Part shown: positions 10,205 through 32,377 of the stretch, piece by piece | Numbering within the stretch: position 1 is the first letter of the stretch | How the letters are laid out: each line of letters starts with the position of its first letter | Origin: Crassaminicella profunda | GTDB lineage: Bacteria > Bacillota > Clostridia > Peptostreptococcales > Thermotaleaceae | Assembly (NCBI RefSeq): GCF_019884785.1 | Contig: NZ_CP082326.1 | Location: 2,225,355 to 2,289,354 of the forward strand | Direction of reading: 5' to 3' | DNA length: 64,000 bases | Position numbers and translations under genes: made by a program | The notes under the pieces: generated by a model | The model's input: the letters and a program-made list of their open reading frames with translations, nothing else | Told to the model about the DNA's origin: nothing | Database searches by the model: none

Positions 10205-10236
10205 CAAATAAAAACTTCGGCATAGCCGAAGTTTTT
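10205..10236 (-). terminator. Terminator of the glycine reductase operon
   Basis: A 12-bp stem AAAAACTTCGGC/GCCGAAGTTTTT with a 3-base loop overlaps the grdD stop codon and is followed by TTTTTATTTG on the minus strand. Confidence 0.92.
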
Positions 10237-11422
10237 AACAAATATCTCCTTCATTTGCAACAAAACCTGCTTTTGCTAAGATATTTGTTCCTTGATCTAG
10301 CTTTTCTTCATTTACAAGAACAATTGGACCTGTACATCCCATTCCACTTTCTGCATAGACTCCATTTTTCCATAATACCTTTACAGCATCTTCTAAATCC
10401 ATTATATCGATTCCAGATATAGCTCCTGTTACTACTTCTTTTGGTGGTGCAATCACTTCTTCATCACTTTCTGATGATTTTTTATTGTCTTTCGTTAATC
10501 CTTCTAATATTTCTTCTAGCTTTGCCTTCTTGGCTTTTTCGTATTCTTCCTTTGCTACTTTTGTAATTTTTCCTTTTGCTACCTTTGCTGCATAGCTTAA
10601 TGCATTGGCAACTACTGGAGACCCTGAAGCTCTTGATAGGATAAGAATAATTCTGTCATAATCTTCTCCTACCCCTGGACCATATCCATAGCCTACTCCT
10701 TCGTAACTTCCTCCTGTTGTAAAGGATGAAAATACTTTCATCATAATATTTCCTGTAAGAGTATCGTTTACCATTACATCAGCTGTTCCACCTAGAAGAT
10801 CATTTCCTCTCATTACGGCTCCGCCGTCTGCTCTCATGGATTCAGCAAAGTTAATTTTGTATCCATTACTACTTAATTCCTTTAATGCTCTTTCTACTTG
10901 TCTTGCTCCATCTAAATTTAAAATCCCTACTGTTGGATCTTCTATCCCCATAGCTTTTGCTGTGATAATTCCATACAATGCATTTTTCACCATAGCTTCT
11001 GTTCTATGAGCTGAGGAGGTTCCTGTTGTTGTTGCTAAGAACATTTCTTTCCCAAATCCTGGTGTAACTACTCTTCCTACTGTTGATACTCCTATTGGGA
11101 AATTATAGTGCATTGTTACACATGCGTCTATATATCCACTGTCTAATAATTCTTCCATTTTTTTATGCATTTCTTCTTCTGATGCTACTTCTGCAACTTC
11201 TAAATCCGTTTCAACCTTCGGTCCAATAAGGACAATATCAAAACCTTTTCCTCTTTTGGCTGCTATTTCTGCACCCTTTACTAAATTTTCTACACCATGC
11301 TCACTACCTAATATAGTCAAACCTACCTTTATCTTTTCTCCAAATTCACCTGTTTTTAAAGCATCAGCAATTTCCATAAAGGTGTTTCCTATTATTTGTT
11401 TTACTGCTCTTTTTTGTCCCAT
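10235..11422 (-). CDS. grdD: Glycine reductase complex component C, subunit beta/GrdD
   Basis: A 395-residue protein resembling phosphate acetyltransferase/PlsX-like folds. With GrdC it forms protein C, which accepts the carboxymethyl-selenoether from GrdA and releases acetyl phosphate. The C-terminal GMGCTGPIVLVNE contains the cysteine thought to hold the acetyl thioester. A Lys/Glu-rich linker (about 280-320) separates the catalytic domain from this C-terminal part. It is the last gene of the operon, 11 bases after grdC, and is followed by a strong terminator. Confidence 0.93.
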   Translation of the reverse strand: MGQKRAVKQIIGNTFMEIADALKTGEFGEKIKVGLTILGSEHGVENLVKGAEIAAKRGKGFDIVLIGPKVETDLEVAEVASEEEMHKKMEELLDSGYIDACVTMHYNFPIGVSTVGRVVTPGFGKEMFLATTTGTSSAHRTEAMVKNALYGIITAKAMGIEDPTVGILNLDGARQVERALKELSSNGYKINFAESMRADGGAVMRGNDLLGGTADVMVNDTLTGNIMMKVFSSFTTGGSYEGVGYGYGPGVGEDYDRIILILSRASGSPVVANALSYAAKVAKGKITKVAKEEYEKAKKAKLEEILEGLTKDNKKSSESDEEVIAPPKEVVTGAISGIDIMDLEDAVKVLWKNGVYAESGMGCTGPIVLVNEEKLDQGTNILAKAGFVANEGDIC

Positions 11423-11433
11423 GATAATCCCCC

Positions 11434-12966
11434 CTATTCCTTTAGTAGATGGGATGCGAAATCTTTCATAGCCTCCGCTATCATATTTTTTATTTCTTCT
11501 TTTGATACACCTACAGACTCTTCTTCTCCTGGATTCCTTTCAAGAACTACAGATACACCATCAAATAGATTTGTCATTCTTCCTAAGAATAAACTTCCCT
11601 TTCCTACAACCATGGCTCTATTTAATTCCCCATTTGTTAAATCTTCTCTTGCAAATCCTAAATAAGGTACTCCTGATGGAATATGTCCTTGAGTTGGTGC
11701 CCATCCTGGCATACCATGTTTTTCTACAAAACCTTTTAATTCTTTTCTTTCTAATTCTTTTCTCTTAACTCCTAAAGCACCAATCATTTTATAGTTAGCT
11801 TCTGGTACATCTCCTGCTCCTGCTGGTTTTGTGATATCTGGGTTTTGCATTTCAACAGAATATTTATCAATATCTGTAATCTTTAGTCCACCCTTATCAA
11901 GAGGTGCAGTAACTAGTGATGTTATAACTGCTTGAGGAGATGATCCTGTTCCTACTGTATGTCTTCCTACTAAGTCTGTTCTAATGATTGGGTTTACCCC
12001 ATCATTTTTACTGATAAGGATTGCAAATGCACCTACTACATCTTCTAATACAGGCAATTCTTTTTTTACATGGTCTTTTCCGTTCATTCCAAGTTTTGCT
12101 GTAGCTCCACCTGCTACGATAACAACATTCTCATAAGTTCCTGCCTTTACAAGAGATGCTGCTTGAATAAGAGCATGAGTTGGTGCTGCACAGAATCCTC
12201 TTGTATCTGAACCTGTTGCATTAGAAGCTTTCGAACACTCTGCTATAGCTTTTGCAAAGTTTCCGCCACCTCTTTGGTTCATATCTCCACAAGCTTCTTC
12301 TGAACACTCTATGACATAATCAATATCCGCCACATTTAAATTATTTTTGTCTACAAGATGTTTAAAGGCAAGAACTCCTGAAGCTTTTACTACTAGGTTT
12401 TCAAAAAGGATATGTGCAGTTAAGTTTACATCTACATCATGAGCTCTTTTTACACAACCTACTAATTTTCCTTCATGGTAAAGAGCTTCTGCATGCTGCT
12501 CATTGATAAATTTCTCAATCTCAGCTAACTCTTCTCCTTCTTTTAACTTCTCTACTTCTTCTTTAAATAATGGATGACTTCCTATTTTCTCTTTTAATGT
12601 TTGTGTAAATCCTTTTTCGATTTTCACAAGATCAAATGCATCTACAATTTTAATAAGCGCAATGAATTCATCTTGTGGCATAATTTCTCCAAATCTTCCA
12701 AAACGATCCTTGCACTTCGCATCTTGACTACACCAAGGTAAATCATATTCTCTTAAATCCTCTGGATTCATATTTCCTATGTATACTTGGTTTGGCGCAT
12801 AATTTAAAACCTCTTCATAACTTCTAATGTGCTCTGGTAGCTTTTTAAGATATTCTGAATCAGGGTTGGTAATTCTTTCTGTAGTTTGGGTTGTTCCATT
12901 ATGGATAATCATATCCGGTGTATATACTAATGCATATCCTGCACCTTTTATTACTGGATAACTCAT
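11434..12966 (-). CDS. grdC: Glycine reductase complex component C, subunit GrdC
   Basis: A 510-residue partner of GrdD with a FabH/thiolase-like core. Visible segments include CSEEACGDMNQRGGGNFAKA, TRGFCAAPTHALI and the C-terminal GHIPSGVPYLGFAREDL. Protein C turns the GrdA-bound carboxymethyl group into acetyl phosphate for ATP synthesis. The gene has an AGGTGG site before its ATG. It follows grdB after 268 bases of spacer with several hairpins, the longest gap in the operon. Confidence 0.93.
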   Translation of the reverse strand: MSYPVIKGAGYALVYTPDMIIHNGTTQTTERITNPDSEYLKKLPEHIRSYEEVLNYAPNQVYIGNMNPEDLREYDLPWCSQDAKCKDRFGRFGEIMPQDEFIALIKIVDAFDLVKIEKGFTQTLKEKIGSHPLFKEEVEKLKEGEELAEIEKFINEQHAEALYHEGKLVGCVKRAHDVDVNLTAHILFENLVVKASGVLAFKHLVDKNNLNVADIDYVIECSEEACGDMNQRGGGNFAKAIAECSKASNATGSDTRGFCAAPTHALIQAASLVKAGTYENVVIVAGGATAKLGMNGKDHVKKELPVLEDVVGAFAILISKNDGVNPIIRTDLVGRHTVGTGSSPQAVITSLVTAPLDKGGLKITDIDKYSVEMQNPDITKPAGAGDVPEANYKMIGALGVKRKELERKELKGFVEKHGMPGWAPTQGHIPSGVPYLGFAREDLTNGELNRAMVVGKGSLFLGRMTNLFDGVSVVLERNPGEEESVGVSKEEIKNMIAEAMKDFASHLLKE

Positions 12967-12996
12967 TTTTCCACCTCCGTATAATTTAAAGAGTTT

Positions 12997-13228
12997 GCCG
13001 CAAGTCTCATGCAGCTCGCAGCTACAGACTATTCAATCATCTATCTTAGTATATTACAAATATAAATCTCTTGCATAAATATAGAAAATATTTATGATGA
13101 TTGTTTTTTTATTAAAAGTTTTAATAAACATACATAAATCTATAAAACCATTATATAATTTTAATAAATGGGTGATTTTCACCACCCATTCATAGCCAAG
13201 CAGCTGCCAGCTGCCTAAAACAGCTGGC
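12997..13228 (-). other. Hairpin-rich spacer between grdB and grdC
   Basis: Three stems are visible on the transcribed strand: GCCAGCTG/CAGCTGGC (13206-13228), AATGGGTG/CACCCATT (13167-13190, followed by TATTAAAATT) and GCTGCGAG with CTTGCGGC using G-U pairs (12997-13022). The second could be a weak terminator that lowers grdC-grdD expression relative to grdE-A-B. A 63-codon open frame in the spacer has no ribosome site and starts inside grdB, so the spacer is read as non-coding. Confidence 0.55.
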
Positions 13229-13234
13229 AAAGAC

Positions 13235-14545
13235 TTAATCTTCAAAAACAGTTTGATCTTCTACTTCAGTTTCTAATGCACTTAATGCTTTTTCAACTAA
13301 TTTTCTTCTTAATTTTTTCTCTTCCTCTGGATCCAATGATGGATTTCCTAGTGGATGAGGAATAGCAATTGTAGGTACGATTCTGTTCGCTCCAACTGTC
13401 AATGAAATTGGAACAACCGTACACATATGGACAACCGGAATTCCAGTTCTTTCGATTTCTTTTACCATCGTTGCACCGCAACGTGTACAAGTACCTCAGG
13501 TAGATGTTAGAATAACTGCATCTACACCATCTGCCACTAATTCTTTTGCATACTCAGCTGCAAACTTTTTAGAATTACCAACAGACGTTCCATTACCTGT
13601 CGTAGTATAGAAATATCTGTGAAGTTCTCCAATTTTTCCTTCTTTTTCCAAATCTCTTAAAACATCAACAGGTAATACTCTGTCTGAATCTTCATTCGCA
13701 TAAACAGGGTCGTATCCACCATGTGCTGTTTCATGAGTTTCAGCTGTTAAATCACTAAATTCAGATATATCATATTTACCATATTTTGATGCACTTGATG
13801 ACTCAATATGATCTGGATTTCCTTTCGGTACAATACCACCAGAAGTAACAATTGCTACCTTTGCTTTTGATATATCTTTTATAGCTTTACCAGGGGTCAC
13901 ATTATCAAAGTCTGGCATTGGATATTCTGTAATATATTCCTCTCCACTTAACTTCTTAATCAACATATCAACAGCTCTTTTTGAGCCTCTTTCTTCTCTA
14001 AAAATATTCTTTCTTACACCCCTTGGAATATATCCTTCAACACTAGGAGCTTGAATTTCTTCGCCTTTTCCAAATTTTAAAGCAAATTTTGCTAATGCTG
14101 GAATAGCTTTTCTCATTGTAGCCGCTGAGTTTCCTGTCTCAATAATATAAAGATCTTTTTTAAACATATCTGATCCGGGATTTTCGGGGTACATAGCTGT
14201 TACAACAGGAATATTAAACGCTTCTTTTACAGCTTTACTAATAGCTCCACAAGCTACGCCATATCTACCTGCATTAAAAGCTGGACCTGCAATGAACAAG
14301 TCTGGATTATACTTTTTCACCATATCAATAATCACAGATTTTGCTTCTTCAATATTTTCATTAAAATAGGAATCACCACAAATTACCGTAGCAACAATTT
14401 CAGCTTCATCTTTAAAAGCTCCTTTTAAGGCCATTCCTGGTCCTACTACACCTTCTCTTACTTCCGGTTTTACATCTGCTTTTTCTTCTCCACCAATACC
14501 TGCAAAGAATTGGTTTATATAATGAACAACTCTAATCTTGCTCAT
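13235..14545 (-). CDS. grdB: Glycine reductase component B, selenoprotein GrdB (TGA = Sec at codon 350)
   Basis: This is one 436-residue gene interrupted by an in-frame TGA at 13496-13498. The sequence around it, TSTUGTCTRCGATMVKEIER, is the active-site region of the GrdB family, in which the position is selenocysteine. The N-terminal part (MSKIRVVHYINQFFAGIGGEEKAD) and the C-terminal part (PVVHMCTVVPISLTVGANRIVPT) both match GrdB, and the total length fits. Protein B binds glycine as a Schiff base on the pyruvoyl group of GrdE and transfers the carboxymethyl group towards GrdA. A start-to-stop reading would call two fragments of 349 and 77 residues; that split is an artefact. Confidence 0.95.
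13469..13483 (-). promoter_or_regulatory. Candidate SECIS hairpin in grdB
   Basis: Twelve bases downstream of the TGA the message can form CGTTGC-GGT-GCAACG, a perfect 6-bp stem with a 3-base GGT loop. Bacterial SECIS elements are short stem-loops directly after the UGA with a G in the apical loop, so position and loop fit recognition by SelB. The assignment rests on position and stem only. Confidence 0.65.
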
Positions 14546-14581
14546 GTTTTCCCCCCTCTCGTATTTTTAACGGGAAATTTT

Positions 14582-15052
14582 TTAATATTTACAGAATTGT
14601 TCTCTCATGGAACTCATTTCTTCAATAATCTCATCAACTTCTAATACCATTTCCATCATACCAATTTGCTCTTCATAAACTTCTTCATCTACAGCCTCTT
14701 TAAATTCTGGTTCTACAACGTGATATACTCTAAGTCCTAACTGGACTCCTGCTAACGAACCTGCAAAAGTAGGGTCTCCATTTGTTACAGTTTCTGCAGC
14801 TAAGCCTGCAGCTTCTGCTTCTGCTGCTCCAAAAAGTACGATGATATTTTCAGCACCATGCTTCTCAGTTAAATTCTTCACCCTATTTTGATTTTCTAGG
14901 TCCATTGCTCCTGCAGCCGTTCAGACAAAGCACTCTGTAGCTGAAAAAACAACTTCACAGCCTGTGCCTTTTAAGCATTCTTCAATAGCAGGACCTGGTA
15001 TACCATCTCTATCACCAATGATGATGACTTTTTTTCCTTCAAATAATCCCAT
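14582..15052 (-). CDS. grdA: Glycine reductase component A, selenoprotein GrdA (TGA = Sec at codon 44)
   Basis: A 156-residue gene with an in-frame TGA at 14921-14923. It starts at the ATG at 15052 ([20 protein letters not shown]), which has an AAGGATGG ribosome site. The TGA lies in the motif [20 protein letters not shown], the CxxU redox site of GrdA, and codon 44 is the known Sec position in the family. The small acidic protein carries the carboxymethyl group as a selenoether and is re-reduced by thioredoxin. Reading from the first ATG after the TGA would lose the whole active site. No convincing SECIS stem could be drawn by eye downstream of this TGA. Confidence 0.95.
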
Positions 15053-15100
15053 GGTTACCATCCTTTCTGTCATTTATTTTTTATTTTAAATTTCTTACTA

Positions 15101-16396
15101 TTAAAATCCTGTAGCAGACATTTTATTGAAGCCTAATTCATTTGTAGCACCTGTAATTACTTGGATTTCAGCTTCAATGCTTCCATCAGGTCTTAAACTA
15201 CCATCAAATCCTCCTGCAATTCTATCCACATAATCAAGCATTCCGATTATTTTTTTCATTGGAGGAAGTACAATAACTTCATTTGCATTCCCACCAGTTA
15301 CCACAGCATCTGCTTTTGAGTCTGCATCTGCAAGAGATTGGGATGCACCATCACGACCTGCATACTCGTCAGTAACAATAACAGTTTTTACACCTTCATT
15401 TTCAATTTTCTTACAGTTCATAATAAGATCTGTATCTGGATTTCCAAAACCTTCTTGAGATACAAGTGCACCATCAAGTCCTAAGAACTTACAAAACTTT
15501 GCAGTCCAATTTGAAGATCTTTCCTTATCTGCAAGATATACGTTTTCATTTGTAATGATTACGCCTACAAAGTTAATATCTTTTCCATGTCTTTCATATA
15601 AATCATGAATGATTGGATTATTTAAATGGTGATAACTTGTATTTTTATCACAAGCTGATACACAGTTACCACTAAGAATTGCTCCATCCATCACTTCCGT
15701 TGGATAAAGAATTGTAGGTACTATTTTTTTTGCATCTACCCCATATACATAAGTATCATGTAATAACCCTTGTGTTTGAAGCATATAAACATAGCCAACC
15801 TTTGGTAGGTCTGGATACTCAGCAACACTCTCAAATAATGGCTTTGTCTCATAAACTTCTACTTCATCAGGAGTAATTTCTTTTCCTGCTTGACCAATGA
15901 AAGTAGCTACTTTTAATCCTGCCATTCTTACAGCAGCTTCATATTCATGTTGTTTCAAATCGTCTATTGGTTCAATCACCAAACAAACATTATTTAGCTT
16001 TGAAAACGGAGTATATTCAGCTCCAGGACCACTCATATCGATAATACCTTCCTGGAAACCTACGATTTTACCACAAGTAACCACTGCAGCTCCCTTTAAT
16101 ACATGTGTGCGACCTGAACCTACAGTAGTAACTTTACTGATTACTCCAGGAAATATACCACCTTGTCCATCAACTTTGACTCTTGGTTCAATAACATCCT
16201 TCACAGGAGTTATTCTGGTTTCTTCCCCTGGTTTCGCAAGTTCTACCTGCACGCTCTTAATGTGATCATCTTCCTTTATAATACTTATGATCTCTTCTTT
16301 GTTTACATATAATATTCCATTTTCCACTTTAGTTATATCACTAAACTGAACATCTGTAATATTAATTTTTCCTAATTCTAAGCGCACATGATTCAC
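15101..16396 (-). CDS. grdE: Glycine reductase component B proprotein GrdE (alpha/beta subunits)
   Basis: A 431-residue proprotein. Cleavage between Asn244 and Cys245 in the motif LSGNCVSACDK is expected to give the two small subunits of protein B, with the new N-terminal cysteine becoming the pyruvoyl group that binds glycine. Cleavage at this motif is established for the glycine reductase of Eubacterium acidaminophilum; here it is inferred from the conserved motif. The gene follows trxA by about 60 bases and precedes grdA. Confidence 0.95.
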   Translation of the reverse strand: MNHVRLELGKINITDVQFSDITKVENGILYVNKEEIISIIKEDDHIKSVQVELAKPGEETRITPVKDVIEPRVKVDGQGGIFPGVISKVTTVGSGRTHVLKGAAVVTCGKIVGFQEGIIDMSGPGAEYTPFSKLNNVCLVIEPIDDLKQHEYEAAVRMAGLKVATFIGQAGKEITPDEVEVYETKPLFESVAEYPDLPKVGYVYMLQTQGLLHDTYVYGVDAKKIVPTILYPTEVMDGAILSGNCVSACDKNTSYHHLNNPIIHDLYERHGKDINFVGVIITNENVYLADKERSSNWTAKFCKFLGLDGALVSQEGFGNPDTDLIMNCKKIENEGVKTVIVTDEYAGRDGASQSLADADSKADAVVTGGNANEVIVLPPMKKIIGMLDYVDRIAGGFDGSLRPDGSIEAEIQVITGATNELGFNKMSATGF

Positions 16397-16456
16397 CTCC
16401 CTTTATATTTTAACCCACATCTAGTAGACTATATGCCTACTAGTGTGAATCATAGA

Positions 16457-16777
16457 CTATCCTACATGTTTTTGAAGCATGGCAAGTATATTTCCTTTTG
16501 TTGCATCATCCTTTGTTACTTCATCAATTTTTTCACCATCTTTGTATAGTAGAATTGTTGGAAGACCTAATACCCTTTGTGATATAGCAAGTCTTCTAGC
16601 TTTTGTTGTATTTAATTTTGCAAATTTCACTTTTCCTTCATATTGAGCTGCAAGTTCTTCCACATCTGGCATTAAAGCCTTACATGGTTCACAACCATCA
16701 CTCCAAAAATCTACAAGAACAAATCCAGCTGCTTCTAAAACTTCTTCTTGAAAAGTTTTTTTATCAAGTGCTAACAT
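16457..16777 (-). CDS. trxA: Thioredoxin of the glycine reductase system
   Basis: A 106-residue thioredoxin. The ATG at 16777 ([13 protein letters not shown]) has a GGGAGG site; the frame runs 24 codons further up, but there it overlaps the end of trxB and has no such site. The redox motif is DGCEPCK instead of the general WCGPC, a variant typical of thioredoxins in amino-acid-reducing clostridia. The cis-proline loop is [10 protein letters not shown]. It passes electrons from TrxB to the selenol/thiol pair of GrdA. Confidence 0.93.
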
Positions 16778-16796
16778 ATGATTTCCTCCCTCATTT

Positions 16797-17738
16797 TTAA
16801 AAATTATTTTCGATATATTTTTCTGCTGCAACAGCTGCAATTGCACCATCAGCTGTAGCAGTTACTACCTGTCTTAAAGATTTTACTCTAATATCTCCAG
16901 CAGCAAATACACCTTCTACATCTGTTTTCATATCAGCATCTGTAATTACATAACCGCCTTCATTTAGTTCTATTTTGTCTTTGAATACATCACTTTGAGG
17001 CTTATATCCTACAAATGGGAATATTCCAAAGGTTCCATCTTCTTCATCTGCATGATATTCAGTAGTTTCTTCTGTTTTCTTGTTTTTAAATACAACAGAT
17101 TCTACAATGCCATCTCCTTTTATTTCTTCAACTACACTGTCCCACATAAAATTTATTTTCTCATTTTTAAATGCTTTATCTTGAATAGATTTTGCAGCTC
17201 TTAATTCATCCCTTCTATGTACGATAGTAACTTTTCTTGCAAACTTTGTTAAATACATAGCTTCTTCTACTGCTGAATCTCCTCCTCCTATTACAAACAC
17301 TTCTAAATCTGTAAAAAAGTCTGCATCACAAGTTGCACAATAAGATACTCCTTTTCCTGTTAATTTCTTTTCTCCAGGGCAACCAATAGGTCTTGGTGTC
17401 GCACCACTTGCAATGATTACTGCCTTTGCTTTATACTCTTCTTTTTCTCCCTTTATGACTTTTATTTTTTCTGTAAAGTCAACATCCATTACAGTATCTT
17501 TTTTTCTCTCTGCCCCAAATTCTTCTGTTTGTTCTACCATTCTTGCAATAAGACTTGGTCCTGTAGCCTCTTGAATAGATCCAGGATAATTTGCTACCTC
17601 ATTAGTCGTAACAATTTGTCCTCCTGTTTTGTCCTTTTCTAATATCAATGTTTTCATTTTAGCTCTTGCTGCATATAGTCCTGCTGCTAGACCTCCAGGT
17701 CCTGCTCCTATAATGACTATGTCATATACATTTTCCAT
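16797..17738 (-). CDS. trxB: Thioredoxin reductase (NADPH)
   Basis: A 313-residue flavoprotein with the FAD-binding start [18 protein letters not shown], the redox-active disulfide SYCATCD, the NADPH loop [10 protein letters not shown] and the C-terminal FAD motif VFAAGDIR. It supplies reducing equivalents to TrxA. It lies between grdX and trxA in the first part of the operon, so it is dedicated to glycine reduction although it could serve general redox balance as well. Confidence 0.95.
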
Positions 17739-17769
17739 TTTATTTCCTCCCTCTCCATTATTAAAATAA

Positions 17770-18159
17770 TTAGCAAAACTGATCCATACTTTCTATTGCA
17801 CTCTTTATCAAACAATAATCAATAACTTTAAAATCTTCTAATATTTTTTCTGCCCAAAGGGGTGTCTTCTTCCCTCTAATAAATTTCTCCGCCGTTTTAA
17901 TACTTCCTTCAATAATTTCAAGAAATTCCATATTAAGGTTACTTTTTTCTTTTGTAATAATCGTTGACTTAAAAGGCGTCTCATTAGGCTTAACGCTTCC
18001 CGATAGGGGATGTGTCATCAGTCCATGCCCCTCATGAATCTTGTCCCTAGTAATGGTAAGAACATCAAGATACGAATATTCTTTCGAATAAATTATATCC
18101 ATTTTTTCCTTATTTTCTTCATAAACTTTCGAATTATTTGTAATTAATATTTTTTTCAT
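17770..18159 (-). CDS. grdX: GrdX family protein
   Basis: A 129-residue protein of unknown biochemical role, found at the head of glycine, sarcosine and betaine reductase operons. The start is placed at the ATG at 18159 (MKKILITNNSKVYEE), preceded by GGGGTGAT; the frame extends 34 codons upstream into the riboswitch expression platform and is not believed. Conserved-looking segments are GHGLMTHPLSGSVKPNETPFKS and TPLWAEKILEDFKVIDYCLIKSA. It is the first gene after the glycine riboswitch terminator. Confidence 0.9.
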   Translation of the reverse strand: MKKILITNNSKVYEENKEKMDIIYSKEYSYLDVLTITRDKIHEGHGLMTHPLSGSVKPNETPFKSTIITKEKSNLNMEFLEIIEGSIKTAEKFIRGKKTPLWAEKILEDFKVIDYCLIKSAIESMDQFC

Positions 18160-18204
18160 CCCATAATCACCCCAGTTTCTTTTAGGAAAACGTTTCCCTG
18201 ATTT

Positions 18205-18253
18205 TTTATAAAAATAGAGGCGCATGACAAACCCATGTTTGCCATACGCCTCT
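18205..18253 (-). terminator. Riboswitch expression platform: intrinsic terminator
   Basis: The strand reads AGAGGCGTATGGCAAAC then a CATGG loop then a near-complementary arm ending GCGCCTCT, followed by ATTTTTATAAAAAA. This long terminator sits between the second glycine aptamer and grdX. Glycine binding is expected to favour read-through, so the operon is switched on when its substrate is present. Confidence 0.85.
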
Positions 18254-18257
18254 GTCT

Positions 18258-18426
18258 TCAACCTGAGAGTTTCTTCTAATCAATAGAATTGCTCCTTCGG
18301 TGCTTTTTAAAAGCTTTCCAGAGTTCCGTCCAAATACGGTCCTTTTGCCTGAGAATTTCACAAAAAGATAGGCAATACCCTCTTGCTTGTCCCTTCGGCG
18401 ATCCAATTCGGATTCTCTTCCGCATT
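18258..18426 (-). promoter_or_regulatory. Tandem glycine riboswitch
   Basis: Two consecutive aptamers are visible. The first runs from GCGGAAGAGAATCC through GCCGAAGGGACAAGC to AATTCTCAGGCAAAAGGACC. The second runs from GGACGGAACTCTGGAAAGC through GCACCGAAGGAGCAA to AAACTCTCAGG. The paired GCCGAAGG/ACCGAAGG and CTCAGG blocks are the conserved cores of glycine aptamers. A terminator follows and then grdX-trxB-trxA-grd, so the RNA senses the substrate of the encoded enzyme. A 66-codon open frame across it is spurious. Confidence 0.93.
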
Positions 18427-22466: not shown

Positions 22467-23399
22467 CTATTGGTTTCCATGTATATTCTTTATCTTCTTA
22501 TTATCTAGTATAATTTCTTGCTGAAAAGCTGCTTTACTAAATATCTTTTCTGCCTCTTCAAGGCTGATTCCCCTTAAATCCATCTTTTCAGGCTCTGCAA
22601 TTCCTATCCCTTCTTTATAAAGCTTATAGATATAACTGATAGCCTGCGGTAAAAAGCCCAACAACCTTGCCCCTATTGTATCTGTAGCAACAGGGTCTGT
22701 TCCAGCAATAATAATCCCTGGTGTATCCACAGCCTTTCCATCAGAAGGTCCTGTTCCTATCATGGTTTTATCAACACTTATAACAGTAAGATCTATAGGT
22801 ATTTTTTTTGTCATAGCTACAATAAATCCATGCAAATCCTCATGAATTCCTAATTTCTTTTTTGGAAAACCATGAATTTCTGCAGGTGGAAATCCTAAAG
22901 CAATATTTTTAATACCAGCACTCATGGTTGCTTCTTCATGTTGCTTCAATTGGGTAAAAGAAATAAGCACATCTATTTCATTAACTAATTCATTTATTTT
23001 CGTACTTTTAGGTTGATCATGTTCTAATTCAAGTTCTATATAGGGACCATAATTCAAATCTACAAATTCTACATTTTCTTCCTGGATGACCTTATCATAC
23101 CCTACAGAAGTTAATACTTTTGGAGTAGGGTCTCCACCAGATCCTGTAGCAATAACTATTTTTTTAGGCTTATACTTTTTGATATATTGTATAAGCCGCT
23201 TTAATGTATTGGGACCTACAACAGTCCCTGTATAGGGAGGTTTTGCCTTCACCCAATTAGGTGTAATCACAACAATATCACCATCTTTTACGATTTCACT
23301 TATAGGTAATAAATCTAATGCTTTTACCATTGAATCTTCTTCTTTATTATCCTTCATAATGCTAACAATGGTTTTTTTTACTTTTCTATCTTTTCTCAC
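22467..23399 (-). CDS. DUF362 domain-containing protein
   Basis: A 310-residue protein. A GTG start at 23399 (VRKDRKVKKTIV) is chosen because GAGGTGAT lies just before it; the open frame extends 26 codons further without a ribosome site. It has the DUF362 fold with VVITPNWVKAKPP, VVGPNTLKRLI, the IATGSGGDPTP loop and the GTDPVATDTIGARLLGF signature. No ferredoxin-type cysteine cluster is present, unlike many DUF362 proteins. The function is unknown. It lies after the terminator of the antiporter gene, so it is probably a separate unit from the GcvP-like operon. Confidence 0.78.
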   Translation of the reverse strand: MRKDRKVKKTIVSIMKDNKEEDSMVKALDLLPISEIVKDGDIVVITPNWVKAKPPYTGTVVGPNTLKRLIQYIKKYKPKKIVIATGSGGDPTPKVLTSVGYDKVIQEENVEFVDLNYGPYIELELEHDQPKSTKINELVNEIDVLISFTQLKQHEEATMSAGIKNIALGFPPAEIHGFPKKKLGIHEDLHGFIVAMTKKIPIDLTVISVDKTMIGTGPSDGKAVDTPGIIIAGTDPVATDTIGARLLGFLPQAISYIYKLYKEGIGIAEPEKMDLRGISLEEAEKIFSKAAFQQEIILDNKKIKNIHGNQ

Positions 23400-23504
23400 C
23401 AGATCACCTCGTAAATCAAATTTGTCATTCATAGTATAAGAAAAGCATGTAATTTTTATACAATTTTGAGAAAACATAGTTCTTTCCTTTTCATCATTCT
23501 CCCT

Positions 23505-23575: not shown

Positions 23576-25042
23576 TTATATTTCTTTCACTGCACTCCCT
23601 TTTTTCTTTAATCTTACCTGAGGTTCTCTAGGAAGTCCAAATAGTGGTACAAATCGATCCCATCCTGTAATCGTAAGAATCAACATAGAGCCTACTGCAA
23701 TAAATGCCATAAAGTTCATTCTAATAATATCCGTTGGTACAAATGGATGAAGAGGATATACAGCCTTTGCAATAGCAACATAGAATAATACGAAACAATG
23801 CCAAGGTATTAATTGAGATCCATACACTCCAAATGCATCTGCAAAAGTTGCATTTCTAAGTCTTAGCTTATACATATCTTCTTCACTTGCTTCAACATTT
23901 TCATCTGTAATATTTTTAATAATCGGGCTAATGGTAACGATTTCCGCCGTCTCATCCCCAAAAGCTGCATTCCCAAATAAACAAAGTAGTCCATTAAAAG
24001 TCATTAACTGCCTTACATTTTTAGCCATACTTACAAATGCTTTAGATATCGGTTCAAAAGCATGCATACTATTCATAATTCCACCAAAAGAAGCCACCCA
24101 CATCATCATTACGATAGACCAACTACCTGCATCAGAAAAACCTGTGTAAATTTGATCATTTAAAAATGCATTAAGATTTGTAACTGTTCCTGCTCCAAAT
24201 CCTAGTATTAACGCAGAAAGAATGCCTGCTCCTAGACAAATCATGGTTTGGAAACCTTTAACAGCCATTCCAATAACAATAATTAGTGGAATAATCATAT
24301 ACATAGGTACACCACTTTTAACTTGTTCCAGTAAAGTTACAGCCGAAGCTCTCTCTTGAGCTAAAGCATCCCATGCTGCTTGTGGAATTGCATTAATAGC
24401 TTCAGTAGCATTTCCTATTGTACTTGGAAGCCCCATAGATACTCCCACAAAATAAATAACAATTGCTGTAGCTAAAGCACATAATGCTGACCAAACTCCT
24501 TGATGCCTAATTCTATGAATAATTTCAACTTTTTGTAATCCTGAACTAAGTACTGTAGTATCTGATATAAGACCAATATTATCTCCAAAGCATGCTCCAC
24601 CAGCAATAGAACAAACTGTTAATATGATATCCCCCCCAACAATATGATTTAACCATAAAAATACAGGTGCACATGCTGCGAAAGTCCCCCAAGATGTTCC
24701 TGTTGCAATAGATAATATACAAGTTACTAAAAATCCTACGACGGCAACACTCTTAGCTGTAACACCCATCTTTAATGCTGCAATAATAATAGAAGCTCCA
24801 ACACCAGTAGCCATAAAAGATTCTGCTAAACCATATGCAAACATTAATATAAAAAATACAATAACAATTTCTCTAACATTATCTAAAGCAAACTCCATAA
24901 TTTGTTTAAATGTATACTTTTCTGTAGCCATTGCAACAATTGCAGCGACAATCGTTGCAATAGGTGCTGCCAATAGTACATCAAGTCCCCCTATCATAAG
25001 CCCTGCCAGTACAAAAATCGGCGAAATTTTTATTAATCCCAT
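23576..25042 (-). CDS. Na+/H+ antiporter NhaC family protein
   Basis: A 488-residue polytopic membrane protein of the NhaC/ion transporter superfamily. Typical segments are IATGTSWGTFAACAPVFLWL, the re-entrant loop GGACFGDNIGLISDTTVLSS and the late IPWHCFVLFY. About 11-12 spans are visible. Family members exchange H+ for Na+, and some exchange organic acids or amino acids (for example malate/lactate), so it could export the end product or import the substrate of the adjacent GcvP-like pathway. It is the last gene of that operon, separated by 220 bases from the gene before it. Confidence 0.85.
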   Translation of the reverse strand: MGLIKISPIFVLAGLMIGGLDVLLAAPIATIVAAIVAMATEKYTFKQIMEFALDNVREIVIVFFILMFAYGLAESFMATGVGASIIIAALKMGVTAKSVAVVGFLVTCILSIATGTSWGTFAACAPVFLWLNHIVGGDIILTVCSIAGGACFGDNIGLISDTTVLSSGLQKVEIIHRIRHQGVWSALCALATAIVIYFVGVSMGLPSTIGNATEAINAIPQAAWDALAQERASAVTLLEQVKSGVPMYMIIPLIIVIGMAVKGFQTMICLGAGILSALILGFGAGTVTNLNAFLNDQIYTGFSDAGSWSIVMMMWVASFGGIMNSMHAFEPISKAFVSMAKNVRQLMTFNGLLCLFGNAAFGDETAEIVTISPIIKNITDENVEASEEDMYKLRLRNATFADAFGVYGSQLIPWHCFVLFYVAIAKAVYPLHPFVPTDIIRMNFMAFIAVGSMLILTITGWDRFVPLFGLPREPQVRLKKKGSAVKEI

Positions 25043-26396: not shown

Positions 26397-27971
26397 TTAT
26401 TCAGCAATAGATTTTTTTAGATAACTTCTCCAAGAAATGGCCCACTCATTTGGATCATCCATACCTGATTCATCTACTCTATGGCACGAACTACAATATG
26501 GAGCATTTTTGAATTTTTCAGGAGTTTCATAAGCCTCCTTAAAAATGTGCTCAAGGGTTGCAATATATTCATCTAAATCCTCTTTTGAAGGTGTCTCAGT
26601 AGGTTCTAATGTCATTGGTTCTGGAACATAGTATGGATGATGACTGCACCAATAATGCATACCAAAGTCCATCATTCTTCTTTGTATATCTTCTGTTTTG
26701 ATTCCTGTATCTTCTGTTAATTTTTCTAATGTATATCTTACTTGTTCTATACGTTGTTTTCCTTTAATATATGGTGCATCCACACAATCTAATGCCATCA
26801 ATTTTTTGAATAAATAGTTGTTATTTAATACTGCTATTTTAGCAGCTTCATATAAACCTTCTGCTCCTAAATTCATAATCCATGCATAAGTCTTCATGAC
26901 AACTGGTGCAACTCCATTAAAGGCTCTAACTTTTCCTATAGTATATGGATTATTTGTGATATCCTCATTTAAAAAGTATTTTTCTCCATCAAAATCAATA
27001 AGTGGTGCTGGCATAAATTTTTCTAATTGTTTTGTCACACCCATAGCTCCAGTTGCAGGTCCACCGCATCCATGAGGTGTTGAGAAGGTTTTATGTAAAT
27101 TGAAGTGACACATATCAAAGCCTGCTTCTCTTGCTCTTGTGACACCTAATAAACCATTTGCATTGGCTTGATCATAGCAGCAAAGACCACCCTTTTCATG
27201 TACCATGCGTGTAAATTCTTGTACCCTTTTATTGTATACTCCTGTATCTTCTGGATTTGCAACAATAAAAGCTGCTGTTCTTTCAGAAACTGCTTCTTTG
27301 AAAGCTTCAAAATCGGGATATCCATTTTCATCTGGATGGATATAGATAATTTTATATCCCATTAATGCTGGAGCTGCTGCATCTGATGGATGAGAATAAA
27401 TAGTTGTAATGATCTCATCCTTTTTATCAGCATTTCCATTTGCCTTATGATAAGCTCTTACTACAGCAGCCATTGTCATAATAGCTTGACTTCCACCACC
27501 TGGCTGGAATGTAAAACGATCCATTCCGGAAATTTCTCTCATGCAAAGTTCAGTTTTATACATAATCTCTAAAATACCCTGAACAGTACTTTCATGTTGA
27601 AGAGGATGTACTTCTGTCATTTCTGGCATTTTCCCTAATTGTTCATTTACTTTTGGGCTATACTTTACTGTACAAGTTCCTTGACCAATTTCCACATTCA
27701 CATCTGCACCTAGAGTCATTTGAGATAAACGCATGTAATGTCTTAATACTCTTGGTTGAGATATTTCTGGTAATTTAGGAAGTTCCTTTCTAAACATTCC
27801 TTGAGGAATCTTTGATACACCATCTCCAACTAAAGCTACAATTTTTTCTTCTGCTTGAGGCACCAAAACTCCTCGTTCTCCCTTTTTACTTAATTCAAAT
27901 ATAATAGGCTCATCCCATTTTGCTTGATGAAAGTTTCTTACTTTGTAATTTCTATTTATTCTCTTCATCAT
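26397..27971 (-). CDS. gcvPB: Divergent glycine dehydrogenase (decarboxylating) subunit 2-like PLP protein (GcvPB-like)
   Basis: A 524-residue PLP enzyme related to GcvPB, about 35 residues longer than usual. The PLP lysine is K294 in HFNLHKTFSTPHGCGGP. Several near-invariant glycine decarboxylase blocks are changed: SAHGTNPASA is replaced by YSHPSDAAAPAL, LQPAAGAHGE by FQPGGGSQAI and YDGANLNA by YDQANANG. The C-terminus carries an extra CSSC pair (YCSSCHRVDE). It lies 31 bases after the GcvPA-like gene. Normal GcvPA/GcvPB decarboxylate glycine onto lipoyl H-protein; no gcvH, gcvT or lpd is in this window. The family is certain; the substrate is not. Confidence 0.85.
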   Translation of the reverse strand: MMKRINRNYKVRNFHQAKWDEPIIFELSKKGERGVLVPQAEEKIVALVGDGVSKIPQGMFRKELPKLPEISQPRVLRHYMRLSQMTLGADVNVEIGQGTCTVKYSPKVNEQLGKMPEMTEVHPLQHESTVQGILEIMYKTELCMREISGMDRFTFQPGGGSQAIMTMAAVVRAYHKANGNADKKDEIITTIYSHPSDAAAPALMGYKIIYIHPDENGYPDFEAFKEAVSERTAAFIVANPEDTGVYNKRVQEFTRMVHEKGGLCCYDQANANGLLGVTRAREAGFDMCHFNLHKTFSTPHGCGGPATGAMGVTKQLEKFMPAPLIDFDGEKYFLNEDITNNPYTIGKVRAFNGVAPVVMKTYAWIMNLGAEGLYEAAKIAVLNNNYLFKKLMALDCVDAPYIKGKQRIEQVRYTLEKLTEDTGIKTEDIQRRMMDFGMHYWCSHHPYYVPEPMTLEPTETPSKEDLDEYIATLEHIFKEAYETPEKFKNAPYCSSCHRVDESGMDDPNEWAISWRSYLKKSIAE

Positions 27972-28002
27972 GATCCTTCCTTTCTATTCCTAAAATCCGA
28001 TC

Positions 28003-29406
28003 TTATGCCTTCACACATTCTTCAATAGCTACTATTAATTTATCAATATCCTCTTTCATATGCACTTCTGTTACACAATACAAAGCACTTTCTCCTAGCT
28101 CTGGAAAATCTTTAGTCAAATCCTTTCCACCAAATATATTTCTTTCTCTTAACATTCTATTGATTTCTTTTACTGTTTTCTTGGTTCCATCAAAATTCAC
28201 TATAAACTCTTTAAAGTTTACAGCATCAAATAAAGAACCTTTTACTCCTTTTATTTCATTTAATCGCTTTATGGCATACTGAGATTTTTGCATAATAGTT
28301 TGGCCTAATTCAAACATACCAGCAGGTCCCATAGTTGCTAGATACACGCCTGCCGTAATCCCCCAAAGAGCTGTCTGTGTCCCTACATATTCTTTTCCTT
28401 CATGTCTGTGATGACCAAAAGAAGTTCTGTCATAGGCTACATCTCCAAAACCATACTCCCCTTCAGCACTAGTCGGTGCTATCCCAAATAGACGAGATGG
28501 AAATTCCATGACAAATTTTTCTTCATCACGAGTAGCCATAAAGCCTGATTGTCCTCCGCCATAATTCATATGCATCCCTAATGGCTGTAAATCTCCACTA
28601 ATAATATCTGCACCATATCCACTTGGAGGTGTCAATACCCCTAAAGAACTTGGATCTACCCCTACTACACTAAGAGCACCAACGTCATGTGCAATATCAG
28701 AAATTTCTTGTCCATGTTCTTCAATAAATCCTAGGAAAGAAGGATTTTCGAAAAATACTGCTGCTGTTTTTTCAGAAATCTTTTTCTTTAAATCTTCAAG
28801 ATCTAATTGCCCTGTTTTCATATCATAATCTACTTTGATAAGCGTTAAATCTGGTTCACAATAATTTTTTATAATCAAATGTTTCTCTTCATCCATTGCT
28901 TTTGGCACTAATATTTCATTTCTTCCTGTTATTCTTCCTGCCATTCTAATAGCTGTAGCTGCTGCTTGTGCTCCATCCATTGTTGGAACATTTACTACAT
29001 CCATATCTACAAGTTCTGCAACTAAGCTTTGATATTCAAACAATGATTGAAATCTTCCAAAGTCATTATATGGCTCTCCACCATACGCAGTTAAAAACTC
29101 TCCTCTTGAATTAATTTCATCGCATATAGCTGGTACATAATGTTGCCAACAACCAGCCCCTAAGAAGCTAATATTATCGTTACAAGTTTTGTTTTTCTTA
29201 AGTAGCCCTTCTACATGTCTCTTTAAAGCATATTCAGATTTGAAAGGCTTTGGAAAATTCATATTTTCCTTCAATTTAATTTCTTCTGGTACTTCTGCAT
29301 GAAGTTCTTCAAGACTATTGAGTCCTATTTCCTTTAACATCTCCTGTTGTACTTCTAAAACTGAATTTGGAATATATGGGTGTGATTTGAATCCTTGTAT
29401 ACTCAT
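28003..29406 (-). CDS. gcvPA: Divergent glycine dehydrogenase (decarboxylating) subunit 1-like protein (GcvPA-like)
   Basis: A 467-residue protein related to GcvPA, with FLGAGCWQHYVPAICDEINSR and VPTMDGAQAAATAIRMA recognisable. In normal GcvPA the segment TAYTPYQAEISQGTLQ follows; here it is TAYGGEPYNDFGRFQ. The normal GGPHAGF loop is GGGQSGF, and the REQHIRREKATSN(I/V)C block is replaced by DRTSFGHHRHEGKEYVGTQT. These positions line the active site of the P-protein, so a changed substrate is likely (inference). It has a GGAGGG site and follows the SDR gene by 80 bases. Confidence 0.85.
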   Translation of the reverse strand: MSIQGFKSHPYIPNSVLEVQQEMLKEIGLNSLEELHAEVPEEIKLKENMNFPKPFKSEYALKRHVEGLLKKNKTCNDNISFLGAGCWQHYVPAICDEINSRGEFLTAYGGEPYNDFGRFQSLFEYQSLVAELVDMDVVNVPTMDGAQAAATAIRMAGRITGRNEILVPKAMDEEKHLIIKNYCEPDLTLIKVDYDMKTGQLDLEDLKKKISEKTAAVFFENPSFLGFIEEHGQEISDIAHDVGALSVVGVDPSSLGVLTPPSGYGADIISGDLQPLGMHMNYGGGQSGFMATRDEEKFVMEFPSRLFGIAPTSAEGEYGFGDVAYDRTSFGHHRHEGKEYVGTQTALWGITAGVYLATMGPAGMFELGQTIMQKSQYAIKRLNEIKGVKGSLFDAVNFKEFIVNFDGTKKTVKEINRMLRERNIFGGKDLTKDFPELGESALYCVTEVHMKEDIDKLIVAIEECVKA

Positions 29407-29486: not shown

Positions 29487-30281
29487 TTATGCAATGCCCC
29501 CACCATCAACTACAACTGCACTACCTGTAATCCAACTTGAAAGATCACTTGCTAAGAATAACACTGCTTTTGCAATATCTTCTGTAGTTCCAAGCCTTCC
29601 AAGGGGTCTATCTTTACCACAATCAACAAGGTATTCCTCCTGTGACTTTTCATCTACTACTAACCCTGTTTGACGGCCTTCATCTCTAAGCATTGCTGTA
29701 TCAGTGTCTCCAGGATTAACACTATTCACACGAATATTTTCTTTCCCATGATCAATTGCCATAGCACGAGTTAAATTAACAATTCCACCTTTTACTGCAC
29801 AATAAGCTGCCGCATCATCTCCACCTTTTAGTCCCCATCCAGAACCTGTATTGATAATACTACCACCGCCACCTGCTGCCATAATTGGAATCACATGCTT
29901 TGATAATAAATATGTACCTTTTAATCCTACATCCAATACAAAATCCCATTCTTTTTCTTCTAACCCCACAACTGTTTTTCTCACTGTAACCCCTGCATTA
30001 TTAAATAAAATATCAATATGTCCAAACTTTTCTTTAATGGTTTCAACAACTGTTTTCACATTTTCAATAGATGTAACATCACATTTTAAAAATTCTGCTA
30101 CTCTTCCTTCTTTTCTAATACGTTCAGCTTCTTCTTCTCCCTTTGGATTTACATCAAGCATTGCTACTTTTGCACCATACGCTGATAAAATCTGTGCTGT
30201 TGCCAATCCAATTCCCCCAGCTGATCCTGAAATAACCGCTACCTTACCTTCTAATGATAAAAAATCTTTTTTCTGTAACAT
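29487..30281 (-). CDS. SDR family NAD-dependent oxidoreductase
   Basis: A 264-residue short-chain dehydrogenase. The dinucleotide motif is SGSAGGIG (residues 18-25), Asp43 after the second strand favours NAD over NADP, the NNAG motif is at 94-97, and the catalytic triad is Ser147, Tyr160 and Lys164 (YCAVK). It ends in DGGG, the usual SDR tail. It should oxidise an alcohol or reduce a ketone. As the first gene after the sigma-54 promoter it probably acts on the substrate or product of the GcvP-like pair. The specific substrate is unknown. Confidence 0.88.
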   Translation of the reverse strand: MLQKKDFLSLEGKVAVISGSAGGIGLATAQILSAYGAKVAMLDVNPKGEEEAERIRKEGRVAEFLKCDVTSIENVKTVVETIKEKFGHIDILFNNAGVTVRKTVVGLEEKEWDFVLDVGLKGTYLLSKHVIPIMAAGGGGSIINTGSGWGLKGGDDAAAYCAVKGGIVNLTRAMAIDHGKENIRVNSVNPGDTDTAMLRDEGRQTGLVVDEKSQEEYLVDCGKDRPLGRLGTTEDIAKAVLFLASDLSSWITGSAVVVDGGGIA

Positions 30282-30357: not shown

Positions 30358-30373
30358 TGCACAGACCATGCCA
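30358..30373 (-). promoter_or_regulatory. Sigma-54 (-24/-12) promoter of the SDR-GcvP-like operon
   Basis: The minus strand reads TTGGCATGGTCTGTGCAT. The GG and GC pairs have the exact sigma-54 spacing (consensus TGGCAC-N5-TTGCA; here TGGCAT-GGTCT-GTGCA). The predicted start is near 30347, about 66 bases before the SDR start codon. A sigma-54 activator is encoded divergently next door and rpoN is present at 3.7-5.1 kb. Confidence 0.82.
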
Positions 30374-30581: not shown

Positions 30582-30628
30582 AAGAGTATACATATTTTAC
30601 CACAAATTATTATAAAGAGGTGTTCCTT

Positions 30629-32377
30629 ATGATCTCACTTGTAGCAGTTCGTCCTAGTCTTCAAAAAATCATCACTAGTATATCTAGTACTTTTGACATT
30701 GAAGTTGCTATTTTTGACAGTCAATATCATTTAGTTACCTGTACCCCAAACTACTTAGAACAAAAAGGAAAAAGTGTACATACCCCTTCTTTAGAAGAAG
30801 TTCTTTCTTGTGGAAATGTCTTAGTAAACAAGCCTGGTCATATGAAATCCTGTATTGGATGTCGTTTCAAAGATCACTGCCCTGCAACAATAGAAATATT
30901 AAATTGCATCAAGTTCCAAAACGAATCCATCGGTGTCATCGCTTTAACTTCTTTTACAAAAGAAGGTCATGATAGACTTACAGAAAATGAAAATGCCTAT
31001 CTAAACATTTTAACGGAAATTTCAGATTTAGTAGCCATGATTGCTCTACAAAAGCATAAAAAAGATGCATTGATTCATTTAGATAAAATCCTTCAGTTAG
31101 TTATGGATTCATCAAAGTCTAGCTTATTTGTCATAGACAAAGACGGCTTTGTTACACACTGCAATCATTCTGCTCTTAAATTATTTTCTTTTTGTAATCT
31201 TCACACAAACTCTCTCTATAATATCCTTCCTGAAGCAATTATAGAGGAAATTTTAGAAGGAGATATGATTTCAAAAAAATATGTTAAAAACGAAAAATTT
31301 GATATTTTCATCTCTTCATCACCCATAAAAACAAATCATGATTTTGTTGGATCTGTAGTACGCATAGAAGAAAATAAAAATTTAAAGGAAAATAAAAAAA
31401 ACATAAGAGGAACAGATCATCAATTTTCCCTAGATAATATGAAAGGAAATAGTAACACAATCCAAACCCTAAAAATCAAAGTACAAAAAATAGCAAAAAG
31501 TACTTCATCTGTTTTAATAACTGGTGAAACTGGCACAGGAAAAGAATTATTAGCAAAAGCCATCCATTATAATAGCAATCGTTCAGACTTTCCTCTTATT
31601 TCTATCAACTGTGCTAGCATTCCTGAAAGTCTTTTTGAAAGTGAATTATTTGGGTATGAAGAAGGCGCTTTTACAGGAGCTAAAAAAGGTGGAAAACCAG
31701 GGCGTATTGAATTAGCTCAAGGGGGTACCCTATTTTTAGATGAAATTGGAGAAATGCCTTTATTTATGCAATCTAAGCTTTTAAGAGTTCTCCAAGAACG
31801 TACTATTGAAAGAGTAGGGGGTATCCGTTCTATTCCTATTGATATAAGAATTATAGCTGCTACAAATCAAAATTTAGAAGAACTGGTATCAAAAAAAGAA
31901 TTTCGAGCAGATCTTTATTACCGATTAAATGTTATTCCTTTAAAGTTACCTCCTCTTCGAGAAAGAAAAGAGGATATTGAAATTTTAGCCATGCACTTTT
32001 TAAAAAAATATAACTTAAAATTAGACAAACGATTAATCTATTTTTCTTCTGATGCCTTATCTTCACTGAAAACTTATCATTGGCCTGGTAATGTACGTGA
32101 ACTAGAAAACGCAGTAGAATATGCTGTAAATATGGAGGAAGAAAATATTATCTCCCGTAATAACCTTCCCGAAAAAATTTTGAAATCTAATTGTATAAAC
32201 AAAAATGAATTAGTTATAAGAAAAAAGATCAAAAATATAGAAATAGAAGCCATTCAAGGAGCTTTAGATAAATATGGATGGGATGTAAAAGGAAAAACTG
32301 AGGCTGCAAAGGAACTAGGAATAGGACTCAGAACCTTATACAGAAAACTAAAAGCTTTCGAAGGTACCCATGAATAG
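30629..32377 (+). CDS. Sigma-54-dependent Fis-family transcriptional activator
   Basis: A 582-residue enhancer-binding protein. The ATG at 30629 is chosen because AGAGGTG lies six bases before it. The N-terminal sensor (1-150) is GAF-like with a cysteine group (Cys61, SCIGCRFKDHC at 74-84, Cys93). A PAS-like segment covers about 150-250. The AAA+ domain has Walker A GETGTGKE (299-306), the sigma-54 contact loop GAFTGA (346-351) and Walker B GGTLFLDEIGE (366-376). A Fis-type helix-turn-helix ends the protein (TEAAKELGIGLRTLYRKLKAF). There is no response-regulator receiver domain, so it should respond to a small molecule. It is divergent from, and probably controls, the SDR-GcvP-like operon. 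Confidence 0.92.
   Translation: MISLVAVRPSLQKIITSISSTFDIEVAIFDSQYHLVTCTPNYLEQKGKSVHTPSLEEVLSCGNVLVNKPGHMKSCIGCRFKDHCPATIEILNCIKFQNESIGVIALTSFTKEGHDRLTENENAYLNILTEISDLVAMIALQKHKKDALIHLDKILQLVMDSSKSSLFVIDKDGFVTHCNHSALKLFSFCNLHTNSLYNILPEAIIEEILEGDMISKKYVKNEKFDIFISSSPIKTNHDFVGSVVRIEENKNLKENKKNIRGTDHQFSLDNMKGNSNTIQTLKIKVQKIAKSTSSVLITGETGTGKELLAKAIHYNSNRSDFPLISINCASIPESLFESELFGYEEGAFTGAKKGGKPGRIELAQGGTLFLDEIGEMPLFMQSKLLRVLQERTIERVGGIRSIPIDIRIIAATNQNLEELVSKKEFRADLYYRLNVIPLKLPPLRERKEDIEILAMHFLKKYNLKLDKRLIYFSSDALSSLKTYHWPGNVRELENAVEYAVNMEEENIISRNNLPEKILKSNCINKNELVIRKKIKNIEIEAIQGALDKYGWDVKGKTEAAKELGIGLRTLYRKLKAFEGTHE

Follow-up and report, generated by a model that had tools for sequence, protein, structure and literature searches.

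A GcvP-like enzyme pair of Crassaminicella profunda belongs to a separate paralogue family that very probably can work without H-protein

Locus and family placement

We analyzed a 64,000-nucleotide stretch of the Crassaminicella profunda genome (contig NZ_CP082326.1, positions 2,225,355 to 2,289,354; hereafter the window), in which two adjacent genes encode proteins, here called PA and PB, that resemble the two subunits of the split, pyridoxal phosphate (PLP)-dependent glycine dehydrogenase, i.e., the P-protein of the glycine cleavage system (GCS). Both reading frames are intact, and they follow a short-chain dehydrogenase (SDR) gene in the order SDR, PA, PB, with gaps of 80 and 31 bp. Downstream of PB lie genes for an ATP-NAD-kinase-fold protein (the kinase-fold protein below), an NhaC-family transporter and a DUF362 protein, and a gene for a sigma-54 activator is divergent from this operon (Table 1).

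Table 1. Genes and features of the window, in window coordinates
Feature	Coordinates	Strand	Basis or remark
PA, GcvPA-like subunit, 467 aa, paralogue clade	28003..29406	-	homology to GcvPA, tree, alignment columns
PB, GcvPB-like PLP-binding subunit, 524 aa; K294, D267	26397..27971	-	homology to GcvPB, tree, alignment columns
Short-chain dehydrogenase (SDR), 264 aa, first operon gene	29487..30281	-	
ATP-NAD-kinase-fold protein, PF01513/PF20143, 369 aa	25263..26372	-	Pfam domains
NhaC-family antiporter/transporter, 488 aa, probably for uptake or exchange	23576..25042	-	
DUF362 protein, 336 aa; optional last operon gene	22467..23477	-	
Sigma-54 activator, divergent; best NCBIfam match PrdR	30620..32377	+	
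Sigma-54 (-24/-12) promoter-like site TGGCATGGTCTGTGCA	30358..30373	-	ends ~77 bp before the SDR start codon
Glycine reductase cluster grdX-trxB-trxA-grdE-grdA(Sec)-grdB(Sec)-grdC-grdD	10235..18261	-	trxA, trxB and grdA named from sequence

As a preliminary description of this DNA had held, the pair aligns along its length with split glycine dehydrogenase, PA with GcvPA and PB with GcvPB. Both proteins exceed the NCBIfam equivalog cut-offs for these subunits (PA, 484.7 versus 364 bits; PB, 562.5 versus 441 bits), so annotation pipelines would misname the pair glycine dehydrogenase. The closest solved proteins by sequence are the Thermus P-protein subunits (1WYT; 282 and 215 bits), which are also, together with the 9A73 model, the best relatives by predicted fold; these fold searches, run with predicted models of PA and PB, confirm the fold only. 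The AlphaFold model of PB is weak (pLDDT 75), and the models gave no heterodimer pocket.

The phylogenetic trees that the preliminary description had proposed as a check place the pair outside canonical GcvPA and GcvPB, in a separate paralogue clade that holds no canonical member, has FastTree support of 0.986 (PA) and 0.961 (PB), and sits on stems of length 0.75 and 1.03, respectively. These trees comprise 99 paralogue and 40 canonical PA sequences and 93 paralogue and 39 canonical PB sequences, selected for both alignments and trees by a length filter (PA, 400-600 aa if canonical and 390-600 aa if paralogue; PB, 430-620 aa) that excluded fused canonical P-proteins, e.g., those of loci L137-L139. 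Scores on the Pfam model GDC-P separate the two kinds as well: among the matches listed for an evenly drawn sample of 199 genomes from the phylum, a list that reaches down to 158.7 bits, canonical proteins score 345-554 bits and paralogues 158-215 bits (a group that includes two fragments from genome G134), and the gap between them is empty. In a second sample, of 48 genomes with the pair, paralogue scores extend up to 258 bits, the highest belonging to G103 (locus L128), which we counted as a paralogue on its BLAST scores (520 versus 294 bits) and its place in the tree. Outside the paralogue counts stand G134, with two canonical-looking fragments, and G175, which has GcvH and a single match whose place is not listed; G092 was taken as canonical on a 299-bit fragment. 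When full-length PB was searched against 59 genomes (its own and those of relatives), the matches fell into identity groups of 70-100%, 52-58% and 37-40%, the last being canonical, besides weaker matches to PA and other PLP enzymes.

The family is widespread. A scan of GTDB found at least 571 confirmed PA relatives, of which the best 80 were kept; canonical P-proteins or intermediates may be among the rest. Every one of the 80 is a paralogue, 79 by BLAST and the other, L065, split by a stop, and their record titles name Clostridia, Bacilli, Chloroflexi, Acidobacteria, Proteobacteria and Aminicenantes, with archaeal bins of Heimdall-, Loki- and Bathyarchaeota also present. The stop in L065 (G066:C28:37252-38595), from a Clostridium metagenome-assembled genome (MAG), is one in-frame TAG in the PA gene and may mark a pseudogene, an error or amber readthrough. 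The family is also apparently undescribed: we found no account of this paralogue in open-access papers, and a description elsewhere is possible, since subscription papers were mostly, and preprints wholly, outside that search.

H-protein and the residues of the active site

The preliminary description had suggested searching for a second, canonical set, and the C. profunda genome (4.59 Mb, one contig) does contain a gcvT-gcvH-gcvPA-gcvPB run about 45 kb past the end of the window, its gcvT and the lipB and lipA genes that follow being named from sequence. The statement that no gcvH, gcvT or lpd is near the pair fits the open reading frames read at 5,000-36,000, the part of the window over which gcvT and lpd were looked for; GCV_H has a single match in the genome, beyond the window.

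We sought GcvH (PF01597) in three sets of genomes. In the first (44 genomes, 18 with the pair), seven pair genomes lack a canonical PB (G002, G003, G006, G011, G035, G037 and G042; four are 97-98% complete and the rest 91, 90 and 76%), and in all seven GCV_H matches are either absent or at most 23 bits, compared with 126-153 bits for true GcvH. The two matches of G037, for example, at 22.7 and 22.6 bits, are just above the Pfam cut-off of 22.2 and span roughly 45 of 122 positions. GcvH is present in every one of the 11 remaining pair genomes. The second set, the 48 pair genomes mentioned above, includes nine without a canonical PA, and in seven of these (G066, G067, G073, G080, G095, G097 and G103) GcvH was not found at E 1e-10, while the remaining 39 all have it; the exceptions, with GcvH and no canonical PA, are G068 and G082, a Paenibacillus. 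In Bacilli, lipoate transfer can depend on GcvH. In the third set, of 16 genomes, two are paralogue-only, G128 (94% complete) without GcvH and G169 (99%) with only a 24-bit match, and the 13 with both kinds of P-protein all carry GcvH, the sixteenth being G175. In total, true GcvH is absent from 16 of 18 paralogue-only genomes and from none of the 63 paralogue genomes that also have a canonical P-protein. Some of these genomes are drafts, so single absences of GcvH can be artefacts. In the 16 genomes without true GcvH, the pair apparently works without H-protein. On this genome content, it is very probable that PA/PB is a distinct family able to function without H-protein, and the separate clade, the second canonical set and the paralogue-only genomes that lack GcvH support the earlier proposal of a paralogue that has another substrate or acceptor or does not use H-protein.

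Column counts in the alignments (40 canonical versus 99 paralogue PA; 39 canonical versus 93 paralogue PB) confirmed the motif changes that had been quoted for both subunits. The PLP lysine is kept, K294 in NLHKTFSTPHG aligning with the lysine of solved P-proteins, and both it and the aspartate of Y-D-x-A-N (D267) are present in 93 of 93 paralogue PB sequences. In PA, T-P-Y-Q-P-E-x-S-Q becomes mostly (A/G)-G-gap-E-P-Y-x-D, GGP becomes GGG (96 of 99), REQHIRR loses E-Q-H-I, with T (98/99), S (97/99) and F/Y (97/99) at the first three, and the S-N and C of ATSNIC are lost. That REQHIRREKATSN is gone, as had been claimed, is slightly too strong: two of its arginines survive (98/99 and 99/99). In PB, AHGTNP becomes SHPSDA with the H kept throughout (93/93), and DGAN becomes DQAN, with Q in 92 of 93. 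With conservation set at 97%, PA has lost 24 canonical-invariant positions and PB 30, and new near-invariant residues appear in the paralogues (E-Q-x-R at 409-412 and S-H-H-P at 443-446). Because these losses are fixed or nearly so across the paralogues of both subunits, we rejected chance or a misread motif as an explanation. The pair resembles the split GcvPA/GcvPB of Thermus in being a two-subunit pair of PLP fold type I with the lysine and aspartate kept, and differs from canonical GcvPA/GcvPB in its separate clade, its 24 and 30 lost residues and its other partner genes.

For the human P-protein, one study assigns Y161, Y164, T894 and W897 to the active site and places Q366, I372, R373 and K376, by prediction, at the H-protein interface, and the docking role of REQHIRRxKATSN is likewise a published prediction (PMC7259800). 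We transferred these positions with an offset of 43 between human and PDB-chain numbering, derived from K754, Y161/Y164 and T894/W897. Matched through the human sequence segment, I372 and R373 presumably fall in the REQHIRR motif. The equivalent of Y161 is kept in all 99 paralogue PA sequences and that of Y164 is deleted in all 99; of the 93 PB sequences, 88 have His at the W897 position and 55 retain Thr at that of T894. At the predicted interface, the R373 position is variable (commonest residue His, 23/99), Gly or Ala stands in place of I372 in 80 of 99, and E, Q, H, I, S, N and C of the docking motif are replaced in most or all paralogue PA sequences. Together with the gene neighbours described below, the pocket residues point to a changed substrate.

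Partner genes and the proposed reaction

We counted partner genes in the 69 loci that extend 2.5 kb or more to either side of the pair, taking features within 3 kb and, except for the activator, on the same strand; the repeats L056, L058 and L116 (of L037, L045 and L051) were dropped from this count and kept in alignments and trees. A kinase-fold gene is present in 52 of the 69 loci, an SDR of the window's family (at least 45% identical) in 42, any dehydrogenase in 51, a divergent sigma-54 activator in 22, an NhaC-family gene in eight and a DUF362 gene in four. Four loci have a medium-chain dehydrogenase/reductase (MDR) resembling threonine dehydrogenase, and in all four the usual SDR is missing, with another SDR in two of them; the MDRs of three such loci reach 226-270 bits against the tdh model, whose cut-off is 458. 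Acetate/succinate-type CoA-transferases occur near the pair in three loci, and other neighbours are variable transport and hydrolase genes (TRAP, SBP_5, Liv-type and other ABC parts, DUF819, M19 and M20 peptidases, and Amidohydro_3). As to the cofactor of the SDR in the window, an Asp after the second strand suggests NAD.

In the kinase-fold protein, both NAD_kinase domains (N and C) are above their Pfam gathering scores (69.2 and 71.9 bits), and there is a weak match to the diacylglycerol-kinase catalytic domain (24.8 bits; cut-off, 23.6); a sequence search for relatives of known structure found none at E 0.01, and the protein has no NCBIfam match. It shares both domains with the AcoX/ATP-NAD kinase family, presumably being similar to acetoin-type AcoX, and differs in its tie to a GcvP-like pair. 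In the phylum sample, 14 of the 16 paralogue genomes carry its gene, as do two other genomes, one with a fragment (Fisher p ~1e-17 over 198 genomes, with G175 left out). An obligate subunit it is not: a search of 15 pair genomes and five genomes without the pair did not find it in eight of the former (G002, G077, G082, G089, G093, G100, G168 and G284) or in any of the latter, which marks it as accessory. The locus of G002 (L039) is a reduced operon that keeps SDR-PA-PB, with no kinase-fold gene found genome-wide and neither activator nor transporter adjacent.

A possible consumer of glycine is encoded in the window itself, where a glycine reductase (grd) cluster, absent from the preliminary description, lies 4.2 kb downstream of the last gene of the operon, with GrdA and GrdB each reading through one in-frame TGA (selenocysteine). 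In five relatives of the same family (G001, G002, G003, G009 and G011) grdX also comes after the operon, followed by trxB-trxA-grdE in three of these five, where the stretch reaches far enough, and GrdB is on the contig of the pair, 8-11 kb off, in G002, G003 and G011. Glycine reductase is not a general neighbour, since tblastn over the loci found it only in the window and in L037, L038, L039, L040 and L043, all of its own family, although most of the 80 loci carry at most 8 kb on each side and more distant grd genes would be missed. Confinement to one family indicates a single inherited arrangement. GCS genes occur within 9 kb of the pair in three of the 69 loci. The pair and kinase-fold gene adjoin gcvT-H-PA-PB and lipoate-type genes in G300, G276 and G191, and in L176 and L177 (G300 and G197) the pair is followed by a second gcvH (by BLAST) and by serA-like, pdxS-like and DUF436-like genes (by the starts of their sequences). 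These are perhaps three independent arrangements, which suggests that glycine is the product of PA/PB.

On this basis we infer the substrate class, the bond broken, the acceptor and the product of PA/PB, and propose, at a probability of about 0.38, that the two subunits act as a single PLP enzyme, from a distinct and old lineage of the GcvP fold, which cleaves a dehydrogenase-made 2-amino-3-oxo acid to glycine and an acyl product. A threonine-type beta-hydroxy amino acid would be taken up and oxidized by the SDR (in some lineages by the threonine-dehydrogenase-like MDR) to the 2-amino-3-oxo acid, which would form an aldimine at K294 of PB. PA/PB would then break the Calpha-Cbeta bond in the manner of 2-amino-3-ketobutyrate lyases, with CoA, phosphate or water entering the former lipoyl-arm channel, and release glycine and the acyl product. 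Glycine would pass to glycine reductase, as in the window, or to the GCS in other genomes, and the kinase-fold protein would have an accessory role. By analogy, such a pathway may be compared with 2-amino-3-ketobutyrate CoA ligase (Kbl) plus threonine dehydrogenase (Tdh), in which a dehydrogenase and a PLP enzyme likewise yield glycine and an acyl product; unlike Kbl, neither PA nor PB has TIGR01822 among its NCBIfam matches (E 0.001). In a bolder form, which we regard as improbable, the pair would be a phosphorolytic or CoA-dependent retro-Claisen enzyme whose lipoyl channel admits phosphate or CoA, turning the beta-hydroxy amino acid into glycine and an energy-rich acyl compound, with the kinase-fold partner conserving the energy as ATP.

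Several observations weigh against glycine-forming cleavage. Decarboxylation is the native chemistry of the GcvP fold, no CoA site was identified in PA/PB, a dehydrogenase is not close in 18 of the 69 loci, and the one GcvH of the C. profunda genome stands beside the canonical set. Kbl coexists with the pair, scoring above its cut-off in six of 31 genomes (below it in 20, with none in five), so threonine itself may not be the substrate; the six also rule out simple replacement of Kbl as a general statement. The grd linkage comes from one family, and two of the three GCS-linked loci likewise share a family, which leaves glycine indicated by few independent events. Counting in favour, GrdB is present in 13 of 16 paralogue genomes without H-protein, although this figure stands without a matched background and glycine reductase is common in such anaerobes.

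The main rival to glycine-forming cleavage is carrier-free alpha-decarboxylation, in which PA/PB would act independently of H-protein on a larger, perhaps beta-hydroxy, amino acid, the carbanion would be protonated rather than attack a lipoyl disulfide, and the SDR and kinase-fold protein would act on the resulting amine or amino alcohol, e.g., 1-amino-2-propanol. Such an enzyme would keep the ancestral GcvP chemistry and fits both the lost residues of the predicted H-protein interface and the genomes that lack GcvH, and a methylmalonyl-CoA mutase-like set (from N-terminal sequence only) stands beside the pair in L119. We nevertheless consider it unlikely, as it leaves unexplained the threonine-dehydrogenase-like MDR and the nearness to glycine consumers, and the kinase-fold protein that would process its product was not found in eight of 15 pair genomes. 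The scores above the NCBIfam cut-offs, the clusters with GCS genes in a few genomes and the second gcvH a few kb from the pair in two genomes of one family would each suit a glycine decarboxylase with relaxed residues, another electron or aminomethyl acceptor and a different carrier in place of H-protein. This is hardly probable given that a canonical set coexists in the C. profunda genome and in 63 paralogue genomes examined, that the active-site Tyr is deleted and the W897 position is mostly His, and that paralogue-only genomes mostly lack true GcvH.

An anabolic role can also be envisaged, with PA/PB joining an acyl donor to glycine or a different amino acid as alpha-oxoamine synthases do, the SDR reducing the product as in sphingoid-base synthesis, and the kinase-fold protein, as a member of the NAD-kinase/diacylglycerol-kinase clan, phosphorylating it. 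Sphingolipid synthesis uses this same trio of enzyme classes, here a PLP enzyme, an SDR and a protein with a weak diacylglycerol-kinase match, and in the Foldseek ranking sphingosine-1-phosphate lyases come directly behind the P-proteins for PB and are among those that come next for PA. The neighbours, however, look catabolic, with many kinds of transporter, hydrolases of peptides and N-acyl compounds, CoA-transferases and a PrdR-related sigma-54 activator, and we judge this role very improbable.

Passing the curated GcvPA/GcvPB cut-offs means that genomes without a GCS would be credited with a P-protein, a misnaming that distorts metabolic reconstructions of anaerobes and archaea, and an unstudied kinase-fold family comes along with the pair. 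Were glycine-forming cleavage correct, the GcvP fold would have given rise to a carrier-free enzyme that splits amino acids, with a substrate made testable by the partner genes; were its retro-Claisen form correct, there would be a new energy-yielding amino-acid pathway common to anaerobic bacteria and archaea.

Regulation and further neighbours

The promoter-like site upstream of the SDR in the window has the form TGGCA-N6-xTGC. Promoter-like matches in the window as a whole are at chance level (11 versus 9.9 expected); across the loci with a divergent activator, a site with at least nine of the 11 consensus positions is present in 19 of 23 (17 of 21 without the two repeats L056 and L058, which this table includes) and absent in L057, L059, L064 and L071. 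The activator matches PrdR at 414 bits, under the PrdR cut-off of 795. A sigma-70 promoter scan of the window gave no excess over chance (45 versus 42.3 expected), and a tRNA search of the window found none.

Two loci have a gene of the MttB (trimethylamine-methyltransferase) family a few kb from the pair, L106 by Pfam and L175 by the starts of its sequences, the latter with a corrinoid-protein-like gene in addition, which for some lineages hints at a methylated amine or amino acid. In a Polaromonas MAG, a gene with a histone-deacetylase domain is located near the pair (L126:13747-14772, + strand).

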